A stretch of DNA of 62,526 bases. Source: an uncultured bacterium (lineage in GTDB: Bacteria; Cyanobacteriota; Vampirovibrionia; Gastranaerophilales; Gastranaerophilaceae). The stretch's first letter is position 1. The number at the start of each line of letters is the position of its first letter. The DNA lies in the NCBI GenBank assembly GCA_903885635.1, contig CAISJE010000113.1, forward strand, positions 1 through 62,526. The letters run 5' to 3'. The notes under the pieces were generated by a model that ran no database searches, had not been told where the DNA came from, and was given only the letters and a program-made list of their open reading frames with translations. Positions 26,083 through 60,365 of this stretch are shown here, in pieces. Made by a program: the position numbers and the translations under genes.

Positions 26083-26524
26083 TTTCGACCTCCAAAAGTT
26101 CAGGGTTCTTAGAGGCACAAGCATCACAAATTACAGTGCCTTTTACAAAATCGTGATATTCGTCTTCGTAACTGCCTATAAAAGCATTGCCATCTTCAAT
26201 ATCATCCTCATTTATTTGCACACTTCCACAGCCTGCACAATAAAACCACCAACCACGCTCTAATAATTCTTTTATTGGTATTAGTTGCTTTTCAGAATAT
26301 TTATCAAAACATTTTTGTCTTTCCGCTCTCAATTCCGTAAAGCTATAATCATCAAAATTACCACTTGCTAATCCTTTTGCCTTTGCCAGTCCTGCCGTTT
26401 CCGCAAAAACAATTTCTTGCGATTCATTTGAATAGTATTTATCCACTATAAGATAGGCTTTTAATTTTCTTTTAGGTATATCTTTAAATGTTTCATTAAA
26501 TTTTTCTTTTAAATTATCTTGCAT
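26072..26524 (-). CDS. Phage protein with two CxxC pairs, probable zinc ribbon
   Basis: The 150-aa product (MQDNLKEKFNETF) has a helical N-terminal half. The C-terminal half carries CAGCGSVQ and, about 40 residues later, CDACASK, consistent with one zinc site. It starts inside the last codons of the methyltransferase gene with GGAG upstream. A role with the methyltransferase is possible from the overlap, but is inference. Confidence 0.6.
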   Translation of the reverse strand: MQDNLKEKFNETFKDIPKRKLKAYLIVDKYYSNESQEIVFAETAGLAKAKGLASGNFDDYSFTELRAERQKCFDKYSEKQLIPIKELLERGWWFYCAGCGSVQINEDDIEDGNAFIGSYEDEYHDFVKGTVICDACASKNPELLEVENAR

Positions 26525-27557
26525 TTTCAATCTCCTTTATTTTTAGTGCTATTTCTTCTACCTCAAGCGGACAAACTGAATTGCCAGCTATTTTATAAAG
26601 TTGTCTGTCTGAAATCCCTATTTCTTTTGCTTTGTGGACGATGCTGTCTGGGAAGCCCTGCAACCTGAAACATTCGAGAGGCGTTAAACGTCTGTAAATA
26701 TTTCCGTTGACTAAAAAATTGTTGTGTTCGTAACCGCTTGATGAAATTGTCGGGGCAATATCTTTTAATCCGCCCTCGTTTTTTCCTCTGGGACACTGAT
26801 ATATCTGAATTTTTATTCCCTCGCCCTTATTTGTGGTTAAAGTCGGGGAGATTCCATCTGCTGAATATACGTTCCCGTTTTGTCCTCGCCCCGATGGGTT
26901 TACATTCCCGACAACTTGAACAAAGTTTCCCTCCCAGCTTTGGTAATCTCTGGCTTTTAGGGGTTGAGCAATGTTATGTATTTTTTTGCAATCCGTTTGG
27001 GATTGAGGATATATTTTACCTGGTTCTCCGAGAGGAAATATCTTTCCGGGACATTCTCCTCCAAGAATTCCGACAATGAAGATACGTTCTCTATTCTGTG
27101 GTATTCCGAATTCGAGGTTATAAAGAACTTGCCATTCAACTTGATACCCAATGTCGGAGAGAACTTTAATGATAGTTGAAAAAGTTCTTCCATCGTCGTG
27201 GTTAAGTAAGCCTTTAACATTTTCGAGAATAAAATATTTTGGTTTTCTGTCCTTGAGAATCCGTGCAACGTCAAAAAACAAAGTGCCTCTTGTGTCTTTA
27301 AATCCTTGTCTTTTTCCAGCAGTGCTGAAAGGCTGGCAAGGAAATCCTGCACACAAAATGTCGAAGTCTGGTAGTTTGCTTGTATTAATTGTAGTTGCAT
27401 CTTTAAAGTAACTTTCCTTTCCCATCTGGAAATATTCAAAATATAGCTTGGAGGCGTATTTGTCTTTTTCGCAAAAGGCGACTATTTCAAAGCCTGCCTT
27501 TTTACACCCTATGTGAAAACCTCCTCCACCAGCGAATAAGTCTATAACTTTTAACAT
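26514..27557 (-). CDS. DNA (cytosine-5)-methyltransferase, phage type
   Basis: The 347-aa enzyme methylates cytosine C5 in DNA. Motifs in order: FAGGGGFH (I), PCQPFS with catalytic Cys74 (IV), ENV at 112-114 (VI), QNRERIF at 154-160 (VIII), a target-recognition region (about 185-270) with NPSGRGQNGNVY, and GNSV (X). No restriction enzyme partner is nearby, so it is likely an orphan protecting phage DNA or marking the host. The recognition site cannot be read from sequence. Confidence 0.95.
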   Translation of the reverse strand: MLKVIDLFAGGGGFHIGCKKAGFEIVAFCEKDKYASKLYFEYFQMGKESYFKDATTINTSKLPDFDILCAGFPCQPFSTAGKRQGFKDTRGTLFFDVARILKDRKPKYFILENVKGLLNHDDGRTFSTIIKVLSDIGYQVEWQVLYNLEFGIPQNRERIFIVGILGGECPGKIFPLGEPGKIYPQSQTDCKKIHNIAQPLKARDYQSWEGNFVQVVGNVNPSGRGQNGNVYSADGISPTLTTNKGEGIKIQIYQCPRGKNEGGLKDIAPTISSSGYEHNNFLVNGNIYRRLTPLECFRLQGFPDSIVHKAKEIGISDRQLYKIAGNSVCPLEVEEIALKIKEIENAR

Positions 27558-41035: not shown

Positions 41036-41239
41036 ATGGGTAAACAATGCGAAGTAGCAATAGGAGATGTGAATATGGCGGATAAGAAAAAAGGTTTTGA
41101 CGATTGGGAAATCAGAAACGCCCTCGATAGTTTGGAAAAAGCAGAAGAAATCAAAAGCAATCCTAATTTGATGAAAGAAGTCGAAAAAGAAGCTAAGAAA
41201 AAGCAAGCAAACCTACAAAAAATCAAGTGGGTTAATTAA
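41036..41239 (+). CDS. Small phage hypothetical protein
   Basis: The 67-aa charged helical product could start at 41036 (GAGG upstream) or 41075 (AGGAG upstream). It is lysine-rich and abuts the portal gene with a one-base overlap. Function is unknown. Confidence 0.52.
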   Translation: MGKQCEVAIGDVNMADKKKGFDDWEIRNALDSLEKAEEIKSNPNLMKEVEKEAKKKQANLQKIKWVN

Positions 41240-43086
41240 TGGGTTTTGAATTCATCTACGAAAAGCAAGGCAAAGAAGTGAAATTGGACGAGGTTACTGG
41301 AAAGAACCTCGCCAAAACTATTGCAAGTGATTTTAAAGCTCACAACGATGCTCGCTCAAGCAATCTTACAAATGCTGAAAGATTAATTGATGAAATATTC
41401 TTTCGTAATAAGATTGTCAATGATGAAAAAGATAAGACAAAAAGCTGGAAGTCTAAAGTTAAAATTTGTAAGACTTTTATGTTCTATCAGACTTTAAAGT
41501 CTTTTATCTGGAAAAACATTTATGCTAATTCAAGTTCAATGTTTGATGTTTCTGGAGAAAATCAGGATGCAGATAACGCAAGCAACAAACAAAAAGCAAT
41601 GCTTGTCAACGTTTTTGAGAAGATGGAGTATCCTAAGATTGCCGATAGAATTATTGAGAATTCATTATTCTATGGTGAGCTAATTTCCTACACTGCTTGG
41701 AGAAAAAAAGAGGAAGAATACAGAAGACCGATAACATTCTTTGAAACTCTTTTTAAAACAGATATTGAAAAGCTACCTTTAATCTTGCAGGCAAAGGCAA
41801 AAGGTAAAAACTATTATATTGATACAAAGATTACTTATAATGACCCTTACATCTATGACATAAACCCTGCAAACTTTGTCTTTGACGTTACGCAGATGGA
41901 TGATTGGGACAGTTGCCCTAAGATTTATAGGTCTTTCAAAACTCCTAACGACATAATCAACAACAGACTTTATGAAATCAGCGAAGAACTTAAGACAGAG
42001 CTTGAGGAGATTATAAAAGCTCCGAATGAAACAACTCAATCTAATCAATCAGATAAAACTAAAAAGGATGAAACTGTAAACGGAAACACAGTAGAAGTCC
42101 TTGAGCATTGGGGTGATTTAAGACTTAAAGACGGAACAATCCTTAAGAACTGGCACGCAGTCGTTATCAAAGGTCAATATCTTGTAAGATTTGCAAAGAA
42201 TGAGTTTATAACAAATCCTTTCACCTTTGGGGCTTATTTAATCGACCCTAAAACAAAAAGAGGGTTAAGTCCTCTTATTTCTATTCTTGACCTTGCATTA
42301 TTCCAAGAAGACTTATTGAATAGAACTTGTGATATGCAAAAGCTGAATGAGAATTCTCCTATCTTTGCTCCAAAAGGATTTTTTGACGATGACGAAATAA
42401 AACTTTATCCGGGTAAAATAATTGAGTTTGGAGATGACCTAAACCCAGCAGAGATACAGCCTTTAAAATTCAACTCTGATATTTTCTTGAAAGATATTAT
42501 GTTGTTCAATGATTTGCTCTCTGAAATATGCGGTATTTTCCCGAATATGACAGGGCAGGACGAATCAAGCAATAAAACTGCAACAGAAATCAGTACAAAA
42601 GTTCAAGGTCAAATGACAAGACTTAGTATGCTTCTTGACACAATCAATCAATATTTGGTTGTCCCAGATGTTAAAAACGTGGCGAGCTTGTTGTCAAACT
42701 TCAAATCTGGCGTTGAAAAAATCTTTATAAACAAAGATAACAAAAGAGAAGTTATCAACATTGATGACAATATCAGACAAGGCGAATATAAGTACACTTA
42801 TTCAGACAGAAGTTCTACTTCTGAAAGATTTAATAAGGCTGATATGACAGCATCGGCGATAAGAGAATTTGCTCAAGTTCTTCCTCTTAATATGAGGGAG
42901 TTTTTCACTTGGTATATGGAGCAAAAAGGTGTTGAAAATCCAGAAAGATTTTTACAGGATATGCCTACTATGCCGACAATGCCTGTACCTCCAGAGGCAC
43001 AAGGCGGAGCAGTTCCAAACGGGGACACAGTTCCTCAAGTTGTTAGCGAGGATGGCTCAATTCCTCAAACGCCGATTGTGGGGTAA
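41239..43086 (+). CDS. Portal protein, podovirus type
   Basis: The 615-aa portal forms the dodecameric DNA gate of the capsid. Family features include KSWKSKVKICKTFMFYQTLK near the N-terminus, GLSPLISILDLALFQEDLLN, and NKTATEISTKVQGQMTRLSM, the typical portal helix. A Pro/Met-rich C-terminal tail with TMPTMPVPPEAQG follows. The size fits P22/T7-like portals. Confidence 0.88.
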   Translation: MGFEFIYEKQGKEVKLDEVTGKNLAKTIASDFKAHNDARSSNLTNAERLIDEIFFRNKIVNDEKDKTKSWKSKVKICKTFMFYQTLKSFIWKNIYANSSSMFDVSGENQDADNASNKQKAMLVNVFEKMEYPKIADRIIENSLFYGELISYTAWRKKEEEYRRPITFFETLFKTDIEKLPLILQAKAKGKNYYIDTKITYNDPYIYDINPANFVFDVTQMDDWDSCPKIYRSFKTPNDIINNRLYEISEELKTELEEIIKAPNETTQSNQSDKTKKDETVNGNTVEVLEHWGDLRLKDGTILKNWHAVVIKGQYLVRFAKNEFITNPFTFGAYLIDPKTKRGLSPLISILDLALFQEDLLNRTCDMQKLNENSPIFAPKGFFDDDEIKLYPGKIIEFGDDLNPAEIQPLKFNSDIFLKDIMLFNDLLSEICGIFPNMTGQDESSNKTATEISTKVQGQMTRLSMLLDTINQYLVVPDVKNVASLLSNFKSGVEKIFINKDNKREVINIDDNIRQGEYKYTYSDRSSTSERFNKADMTASAIREFAQVLPLNMREFFTWYMEQKGVENPERFLQDMPTMPTMPVPPEAQGGAVPNGDTVPQVVSEDGSIPQTPIVG

Positions 43087-44356: not shown

Positions 44357-45247
44357 ATGTCAGTAGAAAACTTAATGATTACGACCTTTTCGCAAGTGTT
44401 CAAAAAATACTTGTATGGTGAACTGGTCATCGGACAATTAGCACACGTTGATTTCAAAAGTGCTATTAATAAAGGTGAAGAAATCAACGTAATTATGCCG
44501 GGTAGTGTTACAATGAGCGACCACGCTGGTGGAGATTTGGCAGATGCTGAAACAGCAGGCTCAACAATCGTGAAAGTGAAAATCGATAAAGGAAAATCAG
44601 TTCACTTCAAAATTGAAGATGCTAAGAAAAAACAAATCGAAAACGCTCCAACACTTGAGCAAAAGGTAGACCTTGCAAAAGACTACGCTATGGATGCAGT
44701 AAAACAATTTGCGGCATCTGTTGATAAAGCGTATGGTAATCTTTACGCAAGAGCAGGTATTTCTTTGTCTAACAGTGGTTCTGCATACACGGTAAGTGCG
44801 ACCAATATTAAAGATATTTTTGCTTATCAAAAAGCAAAATTTGAAAGAGGCGACGGTAAAGGTCATACTGCTTGGGTAGACGGTGAAATGCTTGCGATTA
44901 TTCCGCCAGAAATGCAGTTCTTTTTAACAAAAATTTCAGATTTCGTAGGAACTGAAAGCGGAGTTAAAAACGCTACAAAGGGTTATGTAGGCGAGTTGGG
45001 CGGATGGAAAATACTTTGTTCAAACAACATTGCATCTCCTAGCTCAAACGTTTATATGCCATTGTTTGGACAAAAAGGCAAAACGCTTGCTGGTGGGGTT
45101 CAGGATGATTTCAAATTGATTGATTACATCCCTGACAAATCCTTCGACACTCATTACAAAGGTAAAGGTGTGTTTGGGGTTGGAGCTCCAAGAGCAGACA
45201 TATTCGGTACTGCGATGGTATCAACAACAATGACAATCGGGTCATAA
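44357..45247 (+). CDS. Major capsid protein
   Basis: The 296-aa product fits an HK97-fold capsid: VFKKYLYGELVIGQLAHVDF, ADAETAGSTIVKVKIDKGKS, and GELGGWKILCSNNIASPSSN before the C-terminal IDYIPDKSF region. The order portal, scaffold, capsid supports this. A terminator follows at 45253-45274. Confidence 0.82.
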   Translation: MSVENLMITTFSQVFKKYLYGELVIGQLAHVDFKSAINKGEEINVIMPGSVTMSDHAGGDLADAETAGSTIVKVKIDKGKSVHFKIEDAKKKQIENAPTLEQKVDLAKDYAMDAVKQFAASVDKAYGNLYARAGISLSNSGSAYTVSATNIKDIFAYQKAKFERGDGKGHTAWVDGEMLAIIPPEMQFFLTKISDFVGTESGVKNATKGYVGELGGWKILCSNNIASPSSNVYMPLFGQKGKTLAGGVQDDFKLIDYIPDKSFDTHYKGKGVFGVGAPRADIFGTAMVSTTMTIGS

Positions 45248-46388: not shown

Positions 46389-47048
46389 ATGACTTTAACA
46401 CTACTCGATATTTATAACTATACTACGGGTCAATCGTGGTCTATGTTTGATACTGGTGTATCAGCAGATGATGAATTTGAGAGTAGTGTTTTGTCCTCTA
46501 TTCAAAAGGCATTGGTAGAAATTTGGTGTTCTTTTAATTTCCCATTCAGATTGAAAACGGCAACAATATCCGCAATGAAAGACCAAATTAGTTACGAATC
46601 TCCATCGGGGACTATTGTCGAAGATAGAGGAATTAAACTGTCTGGCGGAGATTATTTAACCAGATTAGACGATTATAAAAGCATATCAGACCTTGAAACA
46701 AATACAGGAACTCCTACAAATTATTATCTTAAGGGAGATTATCTATGTTTGTATCCAGTCCCAGATACAAATTATGACATAATGGTTGATTATAATACTT
46801 TGATTGTTGGGGTGAGCGGAAATTGGGAGGAGCTTTACACTCTTGAGAAAGCGACAGATACTCTCGATATTACTCCAAAATATGAGAGATTATTCTTGAA
46901 TGCACTTGCTACAAAGGCGATGGCTTACGCAATAGCATCTAAAACAGATGAAAATTATACTGGCTATGAAGACCAGTACAAAGGGGCATACGACAAATTA
47001 ATAGATAGTGTCAGAGGCATAAGCACAAGTAGAACGGTTGGCTGGTAA
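46389..47048 (+). CDS. Head-tail adaptor, gp4/gp11-like
   Basis: The 219-aa product has the small adaptor pattern of short-tailed phages: ALVEIWCSFNFPFRLKTATI, a GTPTNYYLKGDYLCLYPVPD strand pair and a C-terminal helix. It should join the portal to the nozzle protein encoded next, with which it is contiguous. Confidence 0.7.
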   Translation: MTLTLLDIYNYTTGQSWSMFDTGVSADDEFESSVLSSIQKALVEIWCSFNFPFRLKTATISAMKDQISYESPSGTIVEDRGIKLSGGDYLTRLDDYKSISDLETNTGTPTNYYLKGDYLCLYPVPDTNYDIMVDYNTLIVGVSGNWEELYTLEKATDTLDITPKYERLFLNALATKAMAYAIASKTDENYTGYEDQYKGAYDKLIDSVRGISTSRTVGW

Positions 47049-48599
47049 ATGACAATAGCAACCCAATTAATTTGCAATAAATTTGGCGGAATCCGAAGAA
47101 AAAACGCCGTTTTTTCAGGTGATATGATAACCGCTAAAGATTTACAAAATATCGAAATTTACGACACTGGCTTAAATGGTGGTGTCGGAATCAGGACTAC
47201 AAAAGGAAATATTAATATTTCTGGAGATGCTTTTCCATCTAATGAAAGCATTATAAACATTTTTGAAAGTGTTCAAAAAGGAAATACTTACTTTTTTGTA
47301 CACACAGTATCAGAAACAGAGGGCAAGGTTTATTTATACGATACTGCATTGAATACCGCAGAGGCTAAAATCACAGGATTAAATCCTACAAAAGTTAGTT
47401 GCGGACACGATTTTGCACAAGGTTATAGCGATTTGTTTGTTTTTTCAAATGGTGTAGACTGGATGAAATCAATCGAAATCGGGGCGACAGATGAATTCGG
47501 AATCCCAAACGAAGTAAAATCCTTAACAGTCCACGACAAAGACGGCAGAGAAGTCAAGGGGATGGGACTATTTGTTTATGATGGTCGCTTGTGGGTTTTT
47601 ATAAAGAATAGATTACATTATTGCGTACAGGAAAATATTAACGATTTTGCTACTTCTGATATAAACGTTACTACATCGGCAGGATATATCGAATATGTAA
47701 AAGACCTAACTGCAATTTATCCCTATTTGACATCATTGGCAGTCTTCTTTAAAGACAGCTCAATTCAAATAAGCGGAACTTATCCATATACTCAAGGCGA
47801 AGAATCACCCGGCGGATGTGCAGGATATAACGCTCTTGTTTTCCACGACACAGATTTATATTTCTTTGATAATACTAAAAAGGGAATCTTCTCTTTCCAG
47901 CAAGTTGTTTTAGGACATAAAACTCTTGGGAAAAATATTGCCGATGAAATTCAAGATGAACTTTTGAACGTTGACCCTGAAAGATTGAATGAAATAAAAA
48001 CTTTATCAATCGTACTCGAATCAAAAAATGAAATTTGGTTTTATCTTCCTGATAAAGACCCGAATTATTCTACAATACTTATTTTTGATTATCTTCACGG
48101 AGAATGGATAAAAAGAAAAAGTCAAAAAATAAATTGTTTTCAGATCGTCGGGAATAAATTTTATTCTGGGACAGATGACGCAAAAATCCTCCAAGAATAT
48201 AAAACATCTAGTTTTAATGGAGAATTTATACCACATTTTTATAATTGCTCCCCTCTGAATCTTGGCTCAAATACGACATTAAAGGTTTTATACTTTCCTC
48301 CTCGAATAGCTTTCGATTTGCCTTATGTTAATAACTTTTTTGTAAAATATATAAAGAATTTTGATATATTCAGAAGTCCGAGAGTTAAAGAAATAAAGGC
48401 AAAATATAAAAACTTTCTTGTATATGGGCAAGGATTTTGGGGGCAAAATTATTATGTTACTAAAACCACAAACGCAATAGGCAAATTGCCGAATGTTACT
48501 TTTAAAACCCTTGAAATTCAGTTTTATACAGATAACATAAAACAAAATTTTGCGATAAAAAATATTGAGTTCAGTAAAATCAAGGTAAAACAATTATAA
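47049..48599 (+). CDS. Tail nozzle/stabilisation protein, gp10-like
   Basis: The 516-aa beta-rich product contains propeller-like repeats (SDLFVFSNGVDWMKSIEIGA, GLFVYDGRLWVFIKNRLHYC, LTSLAVFFKDSSIQISGTYP). It resembles P22 gp10-like nozzle proteins, which close the short tail. The next gene starts within its stop codon (TAATG), so they are translationally coupled. Confidence 0.7.
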   Translation: MTIATQLICNKFGGIRRKNAVFSGDMITAKDLQNIEIYDTGLNGGVGIRTTKGNINISGDAFPSNESIINIFESVQKGNTYFFVHTVSETEGKVYLYDTALNTAEAKITGLNPTKVSCGHDFAQGYSDLFVFSNGVDWMKSIEIGATDEFGIPNEVKSLTVHDKDGREVKGMGLFVYDGRLWVFIKNRLHYCVQENINDFATSDINVTTSAGYIEYVKDLTAIYPYLTSLAVFFKDSSIQISGTYPYTQGEESPGGCAGYNALVFHDTDLYFFDNTKKGIFSFQQVVLGHKTLGKNIADEIQDELLNVDPERLNEIKTLSIVLESKNEIWFYLPDKDPNYSTILIFDYLHGEWIKRKSQKINCFQIVGNKFYSGTDDAKILQEYKTSSFNGEFIPHFYNCSPLNLGSNTTLKVLYFPPRIAFDLPYVNNFFVKYIKNFDIFRSPRVKEIKAKYKNFLVYGQGFWGQNYYVTKTTNAIGKLPNVTFKTLEIQFYTDNIKQNFAIKNIEFSKIKVKQL

Positions 48600-48973
48600 T
48601 GCTGATTTTAACGCCAAAAGATAATCTTTTTAATTATGATGAGGCTAAAAAATTATATGAACAATCTGTGAAATCATTGCAAGATACAAATAGTTTCGAT
48701 GAAATTTTAGAAAGAAATCATTTCTTTAGTTTTTATATCGAAAAAAAATTCATTGGCTGTATTTATTTTTACGATATTGATGGAAAATTATTTTTTAACG
48801 GCTTTGCTGGCAGAAAAACTCACAAACAAAATATTGAGTGTATAAAAAGTGTTCTCAAATTTTACAATTGTGATATTTACGCCAGAAGTACAAAAAAACC
48901 AGCAATACTTTGTCTTTTAAAAGCAGGGTTTAAAAAAATAGATGATAGCACATACAAATATGAAAGGCGGTAA
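48599..48973 (+). CDS. GNAT-like acetyltransferase-fold phage protein
   Basis: The 124-aa product has an N-terminal helical part. The strand-helix pattern FYIEKKFIGCIYFYDIDGKL, then a C-terminal ARSTKKPAILCLLKAGFKKI, resembles the substrate end of GNAT folds. Similar genes sit in podovirus structural modules. The function is unknown. Confidence 0.55.
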   Translation: MLILTPKDNLFNYDEAKKLYEQSVKSLQDTNSFDEILERNHFFSFYIEKKFIGCIYFYDIDGKLFFNGFAGRKTHKQNIECIKSVLKFYNCDIYARSTKKPAILCLLKAGFKKIDDSTYKYERR

Positions 48974-48975
48974 AT

Positions 48976-49791
48976 ATGGGCGGTGGCGGAAACGATTCTC
49001 CGGGATATGCTTCAACAACTTCAACCAATCCGTATGCGACAGGAAAAGCAAGCGGGTCAGGGTCAAGTTATGAATTAAACAATTTTTTGACGGATACAAA
49101 TAAATATGTTGAATCAAGTATGCCGGGGCTTTATAATCAGTTATTAAATCCTAGCTTGGATAATCCGACTACTAAAGCACGTTCGGACTTGTTTTATAAG
49201 ACATTCAATGAAGATGCAAAAAAATCTTTTGAAAATAATTTAATAAATCCTTTGTCATCAAGAAATATGATGCGTTCTTCTGTGGCAACAGATTTAGGGA
49301 ATAAATTCCAAAAAGATTCAACGGATGCAATTTCAACGTTTGATAATTCATTGATAGCAAATAATTCAGCTGATACAAGCAATTTGATTAATACTTTGAT
49401 GAACTTGTACCTTACTGGTTCTAATCTGGGTCAACAAGCTATTTCTAATGCTAAAGGTGATGCTCAAATGGTTAATGCTTTTAATCAGGCTAACTATCAG
49501 ACCCAAAATGCGAATAATAACTCTGCGTGGGGTAATTTTTCTGATTTAGCTTCTACTGCTGGAACTGTGGGGTCAGCCGCACTTATGGCTTCTGATGAAA
49601 GATTAAAGGAAAATATCAATAAAATAGGGGAGAAAAACGGTTATAATTGGTACGAATTTACATATAAGGCTGGTTATAACTTGCCAGAGGGCAGACAAGA
49701 GGGCGTAATTGCTCAAGAAGTAGAAAAGGTTAATCCTGATGCAATAGTTTGGGTTGACGGATTCAGACACGTAGATTATTCAAAATTATAA
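48976..49791 (+). CDS. Virion protein with self-cleaving intramolecular chaperone (S74) domain
   Basis: The 271-aa product is Ser/Asn-rich with a C-terminal S74-type chaperone from about 206. It begins SDERLKENIN and includes GVIAQEVEKVNPDAI. In this family the Ser of SDxRLK is the nucleophile that releases the folded N-terminal part. The N-terminal region is glycine-rich and low complexity, fitting an ejection or fibre-assembly protein. Confidence 0.75.
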   Translation: MGGGGNDSPGYASTTSTNPYATGKASGSGSSYELNNFLTDTNKYVESSMPGLYNQLLNPSLDNPTTKARSDLFYKTFNEDAKKSFENNLINPLSSRNMMRSSVATDLGNKFQKDSTDAISTFDNSLIANNSADTSNLINTLMNLYLTGSNLGQQAISNAKGDAQMVNAFNQANYQTQNANNNSAWGNFSDLASTAGTVGSAALMASDERLKENINKIGEKNGYNWYEFTYKAGYNLPEGRQEGVIAQEVEKVNPDAIVWVDGFRHVDYSKL

Positions 49792-50192: not shown

Positions 50193-51561
50193 TTTTTTGC
50201 AAAATAAAAATTCAAATAACATTGCTTTGCAACAACAGCAAAACGAACAGACAATTGCTAATCTAAAAACGCAGGCTTTAAGTGATGTTTTAAATAATTT
50301 ATTGGCATATCAGGAATCTATCAAGAAAAATCCTAACAATTTAGGGTATTCACAAAAAAGTCTTGATTTAATAAATAAAGTCGGAGCTGATAAAGTTTCT
50401 AATGGTGTTTCGCAGGGGCTTAATTATGGAGTTCCTGAAATTTCAGATTACGAAAATCAATTTGCTGGCGGTGCTGGCAAGGAGGCAGGATATAGAATAC
50501 CTCAAACGCCAGACGAAATAGCTCTTGCAAAACAAGGTCAATTCAATGTAATGCCAGCTTTTTCAACAGGGGTGCAAGGTACACAAGAGCCTCAAGCAGT
50601 AGCAAGAAAATCCGTTCTTGACAGTTTCCTTAATGGTTTAAGTGATTTGGAAAATGGAGCAAGAGAAAATTTTACGACCCCTTTCGCAGTGAACAACTTA
50701 AGACCAGATGAAAATAAATCTATGATGAATAAAGTAGGTGAGGGCGTTGGGACTGTATTTCGTGGGTTAAACTCTCCTTATGGTAGAGCTGGATTAGTAG
50801 GACTTGCTGTAAAGGGGACTGGCGGAAGCAATTTACAGGCTATGGGTTATGGTGCAAAAGCGGCGTCTAAATCTATTGAAAATCAAACACAAAATTCACT
50901 TTATAGAACTCAACTTAAGAAAATGGGTTATTCCGATGAAGAAATAGCACAAATGCCGGGTTATATAAAAATGGGAGATTTTAGAGCCCTTTCTGATGGA
51001 ATATATAAACAAAATTATACAAATTACCGAGATAAAAAATTAGATCAGGACAGCTACTTAAAAAGTAAAAAAATGTTTGATGACCTTTTACTCAAAGGCT
51101 CTTTATCTCCTGAACAGCATAAACAAGCCGTAGAGGAACTTAATAGTATGTTGATAGATGGAAATATAATCACAACCAAGGGCGGAGAAGTCAAAGAAAG
51201 CAACGATACTCGTAAGACAGATTCTACAATCGATTTAAACGGCAAACGTGGCAAATATATGGATGTTATGTCCGAAGAACAACCTAAAAGAACAGGAATT
51301 ATGCAACAAAACGCTAACTCTAATTCTTCTAGGGCTAATTCGTATGCGAAAAAATCTTCTGGCGGTGGTAGAAGCAGTTCAAAACTTGAGAACAATCCAG
51401 ATTACCGTACTCATTTAGCAGAATATAGCACTATCAAGGGTAGTGGCGATAAGAACAAAGTAAATTATGCAAAAAATCAGTTTATAAAAATGTATGGGAT
51501 TGACCCAGACAAAAAAATCAAAAGCGAGAGCGATATATTGGAATTTTTAAATAATGACTAG
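50185..51561 (+). CDS. Internal virion/ejection protein
   Basis: The 458-aa product has an N-terminal Gln-rich helix, a central hydrophobic Gly-rich stretch (GRAGLVGLAVKGTGGSNLQA) that could enter a membrane, and a polar C-terminus. It directly precedes and overlaps the 1,702-aa virion protein by eight bases. This is the usual arrangement of podovirus ejection proteins. Confidence 0.6.
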   Translation: MFNFLQNKNSNNIALQQQQNEQTIANLKTQALSDVLNNLLAYQESIKKNPNNLGYSQKSLDLINKVGADKVSNGVSQGLNYGVPEISDYENQFAGGAGKEAGYRIPQTPDEIALAKQGQFNVMPAFSTGVQGTQEPQAVARKSVLDSFLNGLSDLENGARENFTTPFAVNNLRPDENKSMMNKVGEGVGTVFRGLNSPYGRAGLVGLAVKGTGGSNLQAMGYGAKAASKSIENQTQNSLYRTQLKKMGYSDEEIAQMPGYIKMGDFRALSDGIYKQNYTNYRDKKLDQDSYLKSKKMFDDLLLKGSLSPEQHKQAVEELNSMLIDGNIITTKGGEVKESNDTRKTDSTIDLNGKRGKYMDVMSEEQPKRTGIMQQNANSNSSRANSYAKKSSGGGRSSSKLENNPDYRTHLAEYSTIKGSGDKNKVNYAKNQFIKMYGIDPDKKIKSESDILEFLNND

Positions 51562-54500
51562 CTTATTGGACGGATACGAGGAGCAACAAGCCCCTCCAGA
51601 ACAACAACCAGTTGAAAATACCCCAAGCCTTTTAGATGGTTACACTCCTGCTAAAAAGCAGACAAAACAACCTAAAAAGGTAAAGGTTACTAAAACAGGG
51701 AATCAACAGCCTCAAGCGGTTGTCCCTGATGACAATCCAGTTGTTGATAATCAAGTCCCAGCGATAGAAACTCAAAACGATGTTTCTATACCAGAGGGCT
51801 TGTTTAATGTTGGCAAATCCATTGTAAGCGGTATTTCAAAAGTACCTCAAAGTGTTGTACAATTCGGCAAGGGTATCGCTAATGATACTGTTACGACTGC
51901 AAAAAATATTATAAAAGAGCCTGCTTTAATCCCTGCGATTATTCCTGCGATGGGCAAAGGCTTTGTTAATGGACTTGTCCACGACGTTACTCAAGGGGTT
52001 GCCGATATTCCAGAGGCTTTGACAGCTTCTTATCAGGGAAGACCGTTTCAAGAAAAAGTACACGTCCCAAGATTCACAGAAATTACCGATACTCTCGCAA
52101 AATTAATGCTTGATAAAGGTATTTACTCACCTGAACAATATGCAAAATATCAAGAATTACAGGCAAAAGGGCAAGGCGTTTTAGATAAATTACCGATTGC
52201 ACAAACCGCAGGTCAATTTATGATGCCTGCTGGAAATGTTGCAAATGCTGTCGAAGCTGGCGGAGTTGGAAAAGCAATACTTCACGGGGCTGGTTTTGGT
52301 TTAGTTATGCCAGGTAACTTAGAGAGTAAAATTTCTAATGCTGGGACTGGTGCTGTATTAGCTGGCGGACTTGGCGGATTAAGCAAATTACCAGTTGCGG
52401 ATGTTGTCGGCAAAGCTCCTGATGCGATTAAAAGCGTTTATGGGTCTATCGTTAAGCCAATGACTGATTTAATAAATCAGCCTACTTCTTTCGACAAATT
52501 AAAAAGTATAAGTGCCGTAAACACTGGATTGCCAGAGCAAGCACTTAATACTATTAGATTGCGTTCTATGAAAAATGACATAGACAGATATAATTCTTTG
52601 CTTGAAATTCAACAAAATGGCGAATATGCTGGGCAAAAATTAGATGATGCTCAAGCGAAATCCGTAAAAAGAAAAATATATCAACTTGAAGACAGTTTTA
52701 AATCTCAAAATGATTTTATTAATCAAAATATAAATAAACTTGATTATAACACTTTAAAGACAGTTCAATCAAATTTACAAGGACGTTACGAGGCTACTCC
52801 GATAAAAGATGGTTATAATGTCTATGGCGTGCCCGTTGATGCTCATTCTGGCAAAGTCAATGCGATTAGTGAGCAACTTGGTAAGATTAAAACAGATGAA
52901 ACTATGCGACAAGCAGAAATCGACAATCAAGCTGGATTACAAAGGCTAAAAGAGCAAGTAGCGGAACTCAACAGACAAAGAGCTGAACAAAATTTACCTG
53001 AAATGACTGGCGATGAAATAAGACAAATGCCAGAATTCAAGCAATTATCTTTGAATTTTGATATGGAGCAGAATATTCTCCCAGAGAAAAATAGTTTACT
53101 TGACGGCTACGAACAAAACGCTCCAAAAGATGAATATCAATATGAATCTGTTGCTAAGAATGAAGAAAACCCTCACGACAAAGCCGTTCTTTATAAAAAT
53201 GGCAAAGAGCAAGGATATTTAGAAACACTTGGCGATGATAACAAAGTTTCTATTGAGTATGTTAAAAATACCAGTGGCGAAAAGGGTATCGGGTCAAAAT
53301 TGATTGATGATTTGGTTGCACAACATCCAGACAAACAGATTATTTGGGATGCTGTGGATGATAATGCTTCTATTTTTAAAGATAAATTCCTCGAAAAAAG
53401 ACCAGAATTAAAAGGCAAAGTCCACACTTCAAACGATTATGATACCGCTATTGAAATGTTCAAAAAATTGGGTTATAATGATGCTCAAATAAAGGATGTT
53501 TTCAATGGACAAAATAATAGAGGTGAACTCGGAAGCGGAACTTCTGAAAATTCGAGAGCCAATAATGAATATGATTTGGAAGAAAGCCGACAAATTGAGG
53601 CAAAAAAACCCATTGATGAATCAAGGGGATTCTCTAATAGTGGCAATCAAGGAATTGAAATCGAGCGGAATGTTGCCAGAAATAGTAACAACTTATTAGA
53701 TTCTGAAAATGCTGTAACTGACTTTGGGAAAAAACATTTTGATAAAACAAGTGAGGGGCACTATGCAGAGCCCCGTAATAAGCTGGATAACATAAGCTCT
53801 TTAAAGCTCCAGCATACAAAACAAGTAAAAAATGAAAAGACACAAAACCTCGAAAGTGCCCAAAGTTATATCCCAGTTGTAAAACACGCAGTAAGAAGAT
53901 GGACTGCGGAAATTGAGCAACGCCGTTTTGATGTAAATAAAGACATTACTGAATTTATTAATTTAACAAGAAAAATCTCTAAAGATACTGGTTTAAAGGA
54001 TAAAAATATCCGTGAAATAATGCCATTCTTAAGAGAGAGAACAGGATTGCCAGAAAATCTGAATAGACCTGATTTAAAAAAGACTTGGGATTCTTTAACT
54101 CCTGAACTCAAAAAAGAGCTTACAGAAGTTGCCGACACTCTCTCTGAAAAATTCGAGAAACACTGGAAAGAATATCAATCAGTGCAAGCCGATGACAGAG
54201 AAGTATCAAAGCAAGAAATAGAAAATTATATTACTCATATTTGGGAAGTTGATAAAAAGCAAAAATCCCTTGTTACAAATTATTTTTCTACCCGTTCAAG
54301 ATTTGCAAAAGAAAGAACAATCGATACTTTACTTAAAGGTATTGATGGATTTGAGGCAAGCAACGGCGAGATAATAAAATTAAAGCCCAAAACTCTTGAT
54401 TATGCTGAATTGCTTAAAATTCAATCAGATAGCTTAATTAAAGCTACTGTTGATAAGTCTTTGGCTGATTTTGTAAAAGGATTGAAGACTGCGAATGGCA

Positions 54501-56662
54501 CTCCTTTGGTGTTACCAGCGAGTAAAGCTCCATCCGATTGGGTTACAATTAATCACCCGGCAATCAATAAAACTATCGTATCGCCGATTGATTCAAACGT
54601 AGGCGAAGTTATGACCCCAAAATTGCAAAATATTCTTGCAGAGATGGGCGTTGCAGTGGGCAGAAGATTAAGCCCAAGAGGTAAAAATGCAGGCGTTTAT
54701 AAGAGCGGTTTTGAAGTTGTAGGCAGAAAAGTTCATCAAATAAAAGAAATTAGCTTACAGCGTTGGTTTAGCAACAAAACTCTTGCCCACGAGATAGGTC
54801 ATTCAATCGATAAAGCCTTGAATCTTGGAAGTGATTTTGTAAATAGACATAGAAAAGAGCTCTTGGAGCTTAACGAAGAAAGAATAAATGCTCTATCGAA
54901 ACAAAGACAAGGAGCTTATGCAAGAAAGCCCTCTGAATTAATTGCCGAATTATTCGGGTACTTATTTAATGATCCAAAAATGACAGCCGAAATAGCTCCT
55001 AATGCGACAGCGGAAGTATTGTCAAAGATGGCAGATAGTGAAACGTTTAAAAAGCTCTTGCCTGAAAACTTTGATTGGCAAAATGCCAAAAGTGTTCTTG
55101 AAGAAAAAACCGTTCAAATGTTTAAAACTGCTGTAAAGGTTCACCCAGACATTGCAGATTCTCTTTTGACAGTCTTTGAAACTCCAGAAAATACTCACCC
55201 TGCAATGAAATTACTAGATAACACAAATTCAATTATGAAACAGTTTGAGCTTGGTTTTAGCGGATTTCACGGGATGGCATTATCTGAAAGTGCTTTGGCA
55301 AGTTTAGGTATAAAGGATTTAGGCGGAATTTTAAACCCTGCAAAAATCTTTAATGCGGTAAAAAATAACGACTGGGAAATTTATAAAAAAGATGCACTTA
55401 CCAAAAGGGCTATTGATGACGGGGTTCAAATCGGAGCTACACTAGATATTCATAGAAAACTTGTTGAAGAAATGCTGGAAAACTCTGCTAGTAAGCTCGA
55501 AAAAATACCTTTTCTTGGTAAACTTATCAGCTTGCCTGCAAAATTGTTGAGCAAGGGGCAAAGTTTGAATAATAAAGTTCTTTGGGATTATTTGCATAAC
55601 CAATTTAAACTTACAACTTATGAAAATTTAATTGAGAAATATTCTCAAAACGGAAAAATATCTGACGACGTAAGAAAAGAAATCGGACAGTGGGTAAATG
55701 ACAACTATGGCGGTCAAGTCTGGGAAAACTTGGGCTTTAAGCCCTCTGTAAGACGTTGGTCGCAAAGAGTTATGTTATCTCCTGACTGGTTTATTTCAAC
55801 TACTAGACACTTTTTGGGGATATTATCCAGCGAAAAAGGGCAAAGATTTATAAATGCAAGAGCGAAAGAAAACGCTTTTTGGGAAAAAGCCCGTGATGTA
55901 GGTCGCCAATGGGGTATCGGGTCAATTACCGATGATGTTGTATCTGCTGGAATTAGAGGCAAAGTTGCAAGAAAATTCTGGACGAGAGCTTTTGTAAATT
56001 ATACTCTGTATGCGAACGCTTTAAATGCAGTAAACAGACAAAAAGATAAGGAAGAAAATCCAGACCTTTACCCAGAAAAAATGACCCCTCAAGATTATTC
56101 TTTGATGGGAAATGTTGAGGGTTGCAAAACTTATGTATTCTTGGGTAGAAACAAAGACGGTACAGAGCGTTACTGGCGTTTAGGTAAACAATTTAGAGAA
56201 GTCCCGGAGCTGGTAGAAAAACCTCTTGAAAAACTCGGAGGCAAGGCTTCACCAATTATGCAAATCACTTCACAGGCGTTCACAGGAAGAAGTTTAAGCG
56301 GTTTTGATAATCCTAACCTAAAAGATAAAAAGGGGCTTGACAGAGTTGGAGCAATGAGCGGAGAAGTCGCAAAATCATTCTTGCCATATTCTTTTAGCGG
56401 AGTAACAAACCCAAAAAAAGATTTGAACGGCTATGAATTCTTTGCTCCTACAAGCAAAGGGATGAACTTCTATAAGGGCAGAGAGCTTTATATGAACGCA
56501 ATCAAGAGCAAAGACAAAGCCCAGATTAAGCATATAACAAATGAAATAAGCCGAAACAAACTCGATGCAAATAAAATATTTGGTTCGGCAATAAAAGAAA
56601 TCAGAAAAGAGGCTTATAAAAAAGCTATGCAGAAATTTGAAGAAAAGAAAAAAGGGAGATAA
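51554..56662 (+). CDS. Giant polyvalent virion protein with HEIGH metallopeptidase-like domain
   Basis: The 1,702-aa product is probably ejected into the host. SLLDGY occurs at residues 3-8, 25-30 and 514-519. A GNAT-like segment (KGIGSKLIDDL) lies near 577-590. A zinc-peptidase helix LAHEIGHSIDKAL has His1079, Glu1080 and His1083, with downstream acidic residues (ELIAELFGYLF, about 1130) that could be a third ligand. A long C-terminal helical region is Lys-rich at the end. A multi-enzyme ejection protein is inferred; cleavage has not been shown. Confidence 0.68.
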   Translation: MTSLLDGYEEQQAPPEQQPVENTPSLLDGYTPAKKQTKQPKKVKVTKTGNQQPQAVVPDDNPVVDNQVPAIETQNDVSIPEGLFNVGKSIVSGISKVPQSVVQFGKGIANDTVTTAKNIIKEPALIPAIIPAMGKGFVNGLVHDVTQGVADIPEALTASYQGRPFQEKVHVPRFTEITDTLAKLMLDKGIYSPEQYAKYQELQAKGQGVLDKLPIAQTAGQFMMPAGNVANAVEAGGVGKAILHGAGFGLVMPGNLESKISNAGTGAVLAGGLGGLSKLPVADVVGKAPDAIKSVYGSIVKPMTDLINQPTSFDKLKSISAVNTGLPEQALNTIRLRSMKNDIDRYNSLLEIQQNGEYAGQKLDDAQAKSVKRKIYQLEDSFKSQNDFINQNINKLDYNTLKTVQSNLQGRYEATPIKDGYNVYGVPVDAHSGKVNAISEQLGKIKTDETMRQAEIDNQAGLQRLKEQVAELNRQRAEQNLPEMTGDEIRQMPEFKQLSLNFDMEQNILPEKNSLLDGYEQNAPKDEYQYESVAKNEENPHDKAVLYKNGKEQGYLETLGDDNKVSIEYVKNTSGEKGIGSKLIDDLVAQHPDKQIIWDAVDDNASIFKDKFLEKRPELKGKVHTSNDYDTAIEMFKKLGYNDAQIKDVFNGQNNRGELGSGTSENSRANNEYDLEESRQIEAKKPIDESRGFSNSGNQGIEIERNVARNSNNLLDSENAVTDFGKKHFDKTSEGHYAEPRNKLDNISSLKLQHTKQVKNEKTQNLESAQSYIPVVKHAVRRWTAEIEQRRFDVNKDITEFINLTRKISKDTGLKDKNIREIMPFLRERTGLPENLNRPDLKKTWDSLTPELKKELTEVADTLSEKFEKHWKEYQSVQADDREVSKQEIENYITHIWEVDKKQKSLVTNYFSTRSRFAKERTIDTLLKGIDGFEASNGEIIKLKPKTLDYAELLKIQSDSLIKATVDKSLADFVKGLKTANGTPLVLPASKAPSDWVTINHPAINKTIVSPIDSNVGEVMTPKLQNILAEMGVAVGRRLSPRGKNAGVYKSGFEVVGRKVHQIKEISLQRWFSNKTLAHEIGHSIDKALNLGSDFVNRHRKELLELNEERINALSKQRQGAYARKPSELIAELFGYLFNDPKMTAEIAPNATAEVLSKMADSETFKKLLPENFDWQNAKSVLEEKTVQMFKTAVKVHPDIADSLLTVFETPENTHPAMKLLDNTNSIMKQFELGFSGFHGMALSESALASLGIKDLGGILNPAKIFNAVKNNDWEIYKKDALTKRAIDDGVQIGATLDIHRKLVEEMLENSASKLEKIPFLGKLISLPAKLLSKGQSLNNKVLWDYLHNQFKLTTYENLIEKYSQNGKISDDVRKEIGQWVNDNYGGQVWENLGFKPSVRRWSQRVMLSPDWFISTTRHFLGILSSEKGQRFINARAKENAFWEKARDVGRQWGIGSITDDVVSAGIRGKVARKFWTRAFVNYTLYANALNAVNRQKDKEENPDLYPEKMTPQDYSLMGNVEGCKTYVFLGRNKDGTERYWRLGKQFREVPELVEKPLEKLGGKASPIMQITSQAFTGRSLSGFDNPNLKDKKGLDRVGAMSGEVAKSFLPYSFSGVTNPKKDLNGYEFFAPTSKGMNFYKGRELYMNAIKSKDKAQIKHITNEISRNKLDANKIFGSAIKEIRKEAYKKAMQKFEEKKKGR

Positions 56663-59039: not shown

Positions 59040-60365
59040 TTGGCAAAATACAAACTCTTAAAGGCTCAAGAGCAATTTCTTGAAGTGCCTCACGATTACA
59101 AGAGAGATATAGCAGTTTATCAGGGCGGTTATGGGTCTGGTAAAACTTGGTGCGGTTCTCTTTTAGGAATTCTTTTAGCTCGGAAGTATCCGGGATGCGT
59201 AGGCTTGGTCGGGGCAAAAGAATATGAATTACTCAAAAATACTACTATGGTTGAGTATTTCAACCATTTAGAGGCTTTCGGATATGAAAAAGGCAAGCAT
59301 TATAAATATAATAAAACCGATAAAATTATAACTTTTAACAATGGCTCAAAAATCTTATTTAAGGATCTGGACGACCCAGATAAAATAAAGTCGTTAAACT
59401 TGCATTGGGCAGAAATCGAGGAAATGTCGCAAGTCAAGGATGCCTCTTTCAAACAAGTTCTAGCTCGATTGAGAGCGACTGCAAAACCAGAGTGGGAAGA
59501 TTTCAAATATAGACTTTTTGGACACACAAATCCACAGCCAGATAAAGGCTGGATTTATACAAGATTTGTCGAGAAAAAAGAAAAAGATTATCGAATTATC
59601 TTTGCCCCGACTTCTGAAAACATTTACTTACCAGAACACTTCGTCGAATCGCTCAAGGGCGATTATGACCCAGAGTATTTCAGAATAAATGTACTTGGAG
59701 AATTTGGCGACTATGCAAGCGGTCTGATTGTTAAAAACTTCACCGACGAAAATATTAGAGCTTTAACCTATCACAAAGACGTGCCTCTGCATATTACTTG
59801 CGATTTCAACGTTGACCCGATGTGCTGGGTTTTGGCACATAAAGATGATAAAAGTGCATTCTTCTTTGATGAAATTGTAATCGAAAATACGACAACATCA
59901 AAGACTATTGCCGAATTTATTCGACGTTATCCAGATCACGAAAGCGACATTATAATCAACGGGGATGCTTCTGGGGATAACCGAAACGTAGCAAGCGAAT
60001 ACACGAATTATATTATTATGCGTAAGGCTCTTATCGCTCACGGATACGACCCCAAAAAGATAAAATTCGCCCTAAGAAAATTCAATCCGTTGATTAAAAA
60101 CAGAGTTCACGCTTTCAATGCAAAGGTTAAAAATGCAAGTGGCGGAGTAAATCTGTTTGTAGATAAAAAATGTAAGTGGTTTTTATATAATATTCACAAT
60201 TTGAAATATAAGCCCGGCACGAGCGATATTGATACGCCGACACATCACCAGTTGAAGTCTGAACGGGAAAGCAAATTTTTGGGACACCCTTTTGATGCTG
60301 GAAGTTACCTGATTGAATACTATTTCCCTGTCCAAAGAACAGATGCTAAAGAATACAAAAAATGA
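59040..60365 (+). CDS. terL: Terminase large subunit
   Basis: The 441-aa motor has Walker A GGYGSGKT at 29-36, an ATPase acidic patch AEIEEM near 123-128, the coupling motif GHTNPQ and a nuclease domain beginning CDFNVDP (Asp254, Asp258), with a later acidic NGDASG. It starts at TTG. The large subunit is at the far right of the structural block, about 19 kb from terS, whereas most phages keep them adjacent. Confidence 0.92.
   Translation: MAKYKLLKAQEQFLEVPHDYKRDIAVYQGGYGSGKTWCGSLLGILLARKYPGCVGLVGAKEYELLKNTTMVEYFNHLEAFGYEKGKHYKYNKTDKIITFNNGSKILFKDLDDPDKIKSLNLHWAEIEEMSQVKDASFKQVLARLRATAKPEWEDFKYRLFGHTNPQPDKGWIYTRFVEKKEKDYRIIFAPTSENIYLPEHFVESLKGDYDPEYFRINVLGEFGDYASGLIVKNFTDENIRALTYHKDVPLHITCDFNVDPMCWVLAHKDDKSAFFFDEIVIENTTTSKTIAEFIRRYPDHESDIIINGDASGDNRNVASEYTNYIIMRKALIAHGYDPKKIKFALRKFNPLIKNRVHAFNAKVKNASGGVNLFVDKKCKWFLYNIHNLKYKPGTSDIDTPTHHQLKSERESKFLGHPFDAGSYLIEYYFPVQRTDAKEYKK

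Follow-up and report, generated by a model that had tools for sequence, protein, structure and literature searches.

Polyvalent proteins of phages and conjugative elements join disparate domains in one chain, and their peptidase domains are described as having an Asp at the third position after HEXXH and, in a later helix, a Glu (Iyer et al. 2017, PMC5512222). For DarB of phage P1, the 30 N-terminal residues are enough to direct a reporter to the capsid (PMC9024508). In T7, the internal virion genes 13-16 precede the fibre gene 17. Here these systems are compared with a protein of 1,702 residues, termed the giant protein, encoded by a prophage in a 62,526-nucleotide contig (CAISJE010000113.1, referred to over its whole length as the window; G+C content ~36%) from the 2.28-Mb genome of an uncultured bacterium of the Gastranaerophilaceae. 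We regard it as a polyvalent phage protein, probably ejected, whose core forms a new family and whose array of short tags is lineage-specific. We propose, with a probability of roughly 0.6, that among the ejection proteins of an SU10-like short-tailed temperate phage it is the largest, and that it works as a carrier for exchangeable cargo.

Comparison with described phage proteins

The giant protein resembles the polyvalent proteins in combining disparate domains, i.e. a predicted GNAT-like fold and a zincin-type motif in the window, and a methylase-helicase or LPD1 ('large polyvalent protein-associated domain 1') in relatives; as with polyvalent proteins, its gene lies among virion genes. It differs in that it matches no polyvalent Pfam family, and in that the libraries searched gave no match to its core, its multi-copy tags or its zincin sub-family.

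Lastavirus and Pavtokvirus (LASTA, PEp14 and Stean) encode DarB-like antirestriction giants at a similar genome place, the order being an acyltransferase (in LASTA and Stean), virion genes and then the giant; the methylase-helicase of these giants is homologous to that of two relatives of the giant protein (loci L010 and L014). By contrast, their core is not detectably related, they have no N-terminal tag array, and the giant protein itself has neither methylase nor helicase. As a separate observation, a 124-residue protein encoded just ahead of the ejection-gene cluster, both in the window (48599-48973) and in L010 (5873-6247), looks by eye like a short acetyltransferase; the annotated acyltransferases of LASTA and Stean are similarly placed, sequence similarity to it not being detected.

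P1 DarB is a precedent for an N-terminal packaging signal: it is a large head-packaged protein with a targeting signal at its N terminus (PMC9024508), and tags of the giant protein fit that position, within the first 30 residues. Unlike P1 DarB, the giant protein lacks the methylase-helicase. In the case of T7 gp16, the likeness is that of the last and largest internal virion gene, just before the tail fibre, with an enzyme joined to structural parts; the differences are that no core sequence similarity and no transglycosylase were found, and that the enzyme types are other ones. Homology with gp16 was rejected, the core having no detectable similarity to T7 gp15 or gp16.

In this SU10-like podoviral prophage the giant gene lies where ejection proteins are encoded, the portal, adaptor and capsid genes being followed by those for proteins of 271, 129, 458 and 1,702 residues and then by the fibres. 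From this position it can be inferred that the giant protein is probably a virion protein, put in the phage head and injected with the DNA; the portal, adaptor, capsid and fibre neighbours support the ejection-type protein suggested by the initial annotation.

Conserved core and exchangeable cargo

Single-protein scans of IMG/VR and of genome contigs, and tblastn against phages, gave zero relatives, and none of the records in the phage collection was related to the whole protein or to its compact form. Relatives were recovered by alignment-guided scans, which gave nine IMG/VR loci (L015 and L016 look like the same phage), and by a whole-genome search, which gave G028 (L010, on a contig of a goat-jejunum metagenome-assembled genome in the genome collection), G391 (L040) and six compact proteins of 941-967 residues (L041-L046). 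The core is common to the giant protein, L010, L012-L020, L040 and the compact proteins, all or most of its two halves being present in these relatives.

What lies around the core varies. L010, L014, L015 and L019 have an Eco57I methylase, SNF2 and helicase as cargo, L017 and L018 have LPD1, and a second HExxH (HELTH) is seen in the alignment of L020, while the compact proteins have no cargo and no HExxH. Differing cargo joined to a shared core is the pattern described for polyvalent proteins (PMC5512222). On the sequence comparison, the family design is a tag array, optional cargo and a conserved core, and the alignments show two exchangeable cargo sites, one in the gap between the N-terminal domain and the core, the other between the core halves.

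Some further features of the relatives were observed. L017 and L018 have a third kind of HExxH, HEWWH near residue 1350 (LAHEWWHALDNYFG), ahead of LPD1. In L010 (8349-18032) and L015 (1739-11686) the methylase-helicase cargo is surrounded by two to three copies of a linker peptide, (I/L)APKT(A/V)EK, which may mark domain borders or cutting sites. L011 (9085-12027, in G065) encodes a 980-residue relative with GNAT-like and HEVQH segments, in which a linker of ~25-35 residues (PTEGFYAKLIKDE...VDIETPKQAVVTNKN) occurs twice, either side of the GNAT-like part; it is set among host-like genes and adjoins a Cas9-like open reading frame, as if a prophage remnant.

N-terminal tag arrays

The hexapeptide SLLDGY occurs three times in the giant protein. 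The corresponding DNA pattern (YTNYTNGAYGGNTAY) is present four times in the window, versus 0.11 expected from shuffles, with three of these in frame in the giant gene, and the best N-terminal repeat pair of the protein was matched in 1/300 shuffles. A repeated 7-mer in the first 70 residues is found in 13 of the 14 family proteins with a visible N terminus, as two to four near-identical tags of 6-8 residues (matched in at most 1/300 shuffles for 12 proteins, and in 13/300 for L045).

The tags themselves differ between sub-families. SLLDGY is shared by the giant protein, L012 and L013, each with a third copy opening the variable part (SILDGY in L013); L017 has DLL(D/E)GYEE, L020 has SLREFRE, L010 and L014 have Y(F/W)xQFEK, L015 has L(Y/F)DDIL, and the compact proteins have forms of (K/N/I)xDF(Q/I)(P/E), mostly in three to four copies. 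The mean BLOSUM62 sum is 28.8 for tags within a protein versus -4.4 between non-sister proteins, the latter value being rough because a single fixed register was used in aligning the tags. The codons of tag copies often differ synonymously (4-5 synonymous versus 0-1 other codon differences for the window pairs), and recent DNA duplication was rejected as the cause of the tags because the codons differ. Tag and adjoining domain are separable, in that L015 has the N-terminal domain of the giant protein but another tag, and L017 has nearly the same tag without that domain. Among the open reading frames of the loci that were read, a phage's own tag is essentially confined to its giant gene, with one loose match in a short reading frame of the window.

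The simplest reading of these sequences is that the tags are a short linear motif, present in several copies, that would be read by a phage-specific partner; this supports one of two roles that the initial annotation had offered for SLLDGY, i.e. that of a docking tag. Portal identity to the window was similar in like-tag and unlike-tag phages, and so gives no pointer to the receptor. A scan of IMG/VR for other M-x-x-LLDGYE openings gave 89 stretches, with a second tag in none of the 80 sites read. In the literature searched, which took in a minority of subscription journals, no description of repeated targeting tags was found; the evidence is correspondingly weak. It may be, although we would put this at somewhat less than even odds, that the arrays (SLLDGY, SLREFRE, YFDQFEK, LYDDIL, KFDFQPD etc.) constitute an undescribed, multivalent and phage-specific zip code that loads ejection proteins, with the enzymes spliced into them, into the heads of short-tailed phages; tag and virion receptor would then change together, and the label would be modular, unlike T4 IPIII and P1 DarB, each of which has a single signal.

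HEIGH cassette and GNAT-like segment

The cassette bearing HEIGH is present in five proteins (the giant protein, L012, L013, L020 and L040) and missing from the other core relatives. In most large relatives the core halves are almost contiguous, whereas in the giant protein ~175 residues with HEIGH lie between them; the insertion point is constant among the proteins that have the cassette. Two changes have to be placed on a core tree to account for the cassette, and a gain followed by a loss would do so; some branches of this tree are long.

An HExxH alone is expected by chance ~0.03 times in a protein of this composition. The motif is credible because it is invariant in the five homologues together with D1086, E1128 and E1132 (5/5 for both His, the Glu and these three residues) at an overall identity to the giant protein of 52-71%. 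The two downstream Glu residues lie ~50 residues after HEIGH, and together with D1086 they fit the description of polyvalent-protein peptidases in PMC5512222. Distant proteins from the family and class of the host also have HEXXH with a downstream Glu. Thus, the metallopeptidase-like helix of the initial annotation, for which lack of HEIGH conservation would have been damaging, proved to be part of a conserved zincin-type active-site motif, and the cassette is a probable zincin. In the AlphaFold2 model the HEIGH and Glu helices are confident, but the strand region has a predicted local distance difference test (pLDDT) score below 50. Profile comparisons stayed below the curated Pfam cut-off (best E 0.002-0.01, to ATLF, M78 and M91), and in hidden Markov model alignments to P1 DdrB and the virion RNA polymerase of N4 the HExxH helix was the sole part to match.

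For the GNAT-like segment, PF13673 likewise falls below the Pfam cut-off (E 0.08 with the whole protein, 0.001 with the segment alone). The predicted structure (pLDDT 77) has the order of elements of a GNAT fold (β2-4, helix, β5, helix, β6), with a Foldseek probability of 1.00 to GCN5, PCAF, RibT and AcrVA5 (best E 8e-4; template-modelling score ~0.5); the acetyltransferase-like segment noted previously is thus supported as a predicted GNAT-like fold, its activity being putative. Catalysis is uncertain because the fold lacks its first strand and helices and has an incomplete motif A. The likeness to AcrVA5 and other short GNATs is one of predicted fold (AcrVA5, E 3.3e-3); at 26% identity over ~80 columns, and with the incomplete acetyl-CoA motif of the giant protein, it is a lead only. 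Other giant phage-like proteins from the family and order of the host (L011, L049 and L050) have segments that align with the GNAT-like segment. In L049 and L050 (G122 and G164), which encode giant phage-like host-family proteins, the same segment was observed with the pattern IEKGAARK...YPNKxxxWxAxNExSxKSY.

Genomic setting

The open reading frame is genuine and complete, and its length, HEIGH, the GNAT-like segment and the three SLLDGY copies are as the initial annotation had noted (positions in Table 1). The prophage occupies the window from ~23.5 kb onward, where an integrase reading frame, assigned by eye, adjoins a tRNA-Val; no right attachment repeat of the tRNA-Val end was found within the window. 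An SU10-type portal and adaptor are both present, as in an SU10-like podovirus morphogenesis module. In the leftward cluster of the prophage, a protein encoded at 26514-27557 resembles, by eye, a DNA cytosine methyltransferase.

Table 1. Features of the giant protein and neighbouring genes (window coordinates)
Feature	Position	Strand	Basis or comment
Giant protein, 1702 residues	51554..56662	+	Open reading frame with translation; ATG overlaps 3' end of upstream gene
Tag 1, SLLDGY, residues 3-8	51560..51577	+	N-terminal
Tag 2, SLLDGY, residues 25-30	51626..51643	+	N-terminal
N-terminal domain, residues 78-251	51785..52306	+	Common to L012, L013; L015 at ~30%
Module (KDGYNVYGVPV), residues 355-473	52616..52972	+	Common to L012, L013, L020, L011 (G065 protein)
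Tag 3, SLLDGY, residues 514-519	53093..53110	+	Border of variable cargo; same place in L012, L013
GNAT-like cargo domain, residues 525-650	53126..53503	+	Alignment, structure prediction
Core, first half, residues 775-1009	53876..54580	+	Relatives comparison
Zincin-like (HEIGH) cassette, residues ~1005-1190	54566..55123	+	Inserted between core halves
HEIGH, residues 1079-1083	54788..54802	+	Glu1080, predicted general base
ELIAE, residues 1128-1132	54935..54949	+	E1128 or E1132, candidate third zinc ligand
Core, second half, residues 1184-1702	55103..56659	+	Relatives comparison
SU10-like portal protein	41239..43086	+	Pfam PF23899/PF24175 pair (portal + adaptor), above cut-off
Major capsid protein	44357..45247	+	
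SU10-like adaptor	46389..47048	+	Pfam PF23899/PF24175 pair (portal + adaptor), above cut-off
Virion protein, 271 residues, same cluster	48976..49791	+	C-terminal S74 chaperone segment
Probable second ejection protein, 458 residues	50185..51561	+	Position only; 506-residue protein there in L010
Terminase large subunit	59040..60365	+	

Alternative interpretations

Several observations weigh against the giant protein being an ejected carrier. The ejection-protein label rests on position because the core has no match above noise in Pfam or PHROG, among PDB sequences or to the T7 internal proteins; the whole giant protein, too, gave nothing over cut-off against Pfam and PHROG. The signal of P1 DarB shows no repeated tag and no sequence likeness. 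L018 has no visible tag, and a tag array is not general because eight methylase-bearing giants of other phages have no significant N-terminal repeat (the starts of MT835532 and JK004 being uncertain). The zincin model is weak (pLDDT 66, with no sheet built) and has no significant Foldseek match in PDB or BFVD (best in BFVD, a phage methylase protein, E 0.18). In the GNAT-like segment, GEKGIGS retains the Gly-x-Gly of the acetyl-CoA motif, (Q/R)xxGx(G/A), without the classical Arg/Gln of motif A.

The role of the HEIGH domain can be construed in other ways. It may be that the peptidase is an injected effector that cuts a host protein, of defence or envelope, early in infection, an option listed in PMC5512222 and one that fits effector gain and loss, in that the cassette is present or absent while the core stays; we consider this rather unlikely, as the cassette lies between the core halves and not with the N-terminal cargo, a location that suits a structural or processing role as well. 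Alternatively, the peptidase might be self-processing, whether in the head or once injected, with cuts in or close to SLLDGY or the linkers that free the GNAT-like part from the core. Autoproteolysis has been proposed for such domains, with processed P1 DdrB as the cited case (PMC5512222), the third tag lies at a cargo border, and no prohead-protease family was found among nine morphogenesis proteins scanned. However, SLLDGY, which the initial annotation had raised as a processing tag, is a poor candidate for the peptidase sites because the compact relatives have two to four tags without HExxH, and it is not a general recognition site because, in addition, the HEIGH domain of L020 is accompanied by a different tag. 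Self-processing appears unlikely, though the peptidase may cut at other linkers.

That the HEIGH domain is structural, i.e. required for the protein to pack or fold while catalysis is of secondary importance or has been lost, is less probable again. The N4 virion RNA polymerase is packaged uncut although its encapsidation depends on the region surrounding its metallopeptidase domain (PMC5512222), and the constant insertion point would also suit such a role; yet all the predicted zinc and catalytic residues are invariant despite the divergence of the homologues, which favours catalysis, and most core relatives manage without the domain. As for the tags, their disordered-looking, Q/P-rich N-terminal location is what would be expected of an incidental low-complexity linker without function, but the peptide is kept through synonymous change, arrays lie near the N terminus in nearly all the proteins, and copies change in step within each protein, so that an incidental origin is very improbable.

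Proposed mechanism and implications

In the carrier model, the repeated N-terminal SLLDGY tags would be read by a virion component, such as the portal, scaffold or another core protein, and this reading would place several copies of the giant protein in the head. The core, as its position and conservation suggest, would do the structural work of DNA delivery and leave with the DNA. The cargo slots would here hold the GNAT-like domain and the zincin-like metallopeptidase, and in relatives a DarB-like methylase and helicase, other zincins, LPD1, or nothing. After delivery the cargo would act in the new host: a defence protein of the host may be the target of modification by the GNAT-like domain, while the peptidase may detach the cargo from the core or cleave one of the host's proteins.

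How phages choose large proteins for the head is poorly known. The family described here separates the parts, as its compact members consist of tags and core and its larger members add exchangeable enzymes, so making the proposal that the tag is an address, the core a delivery device and the insert a weapon directly testable. In addition, its zincin and GNAT-like domains are uncharacterised candidates for anti-defence functions that act early, in bacteria that have been little studied.

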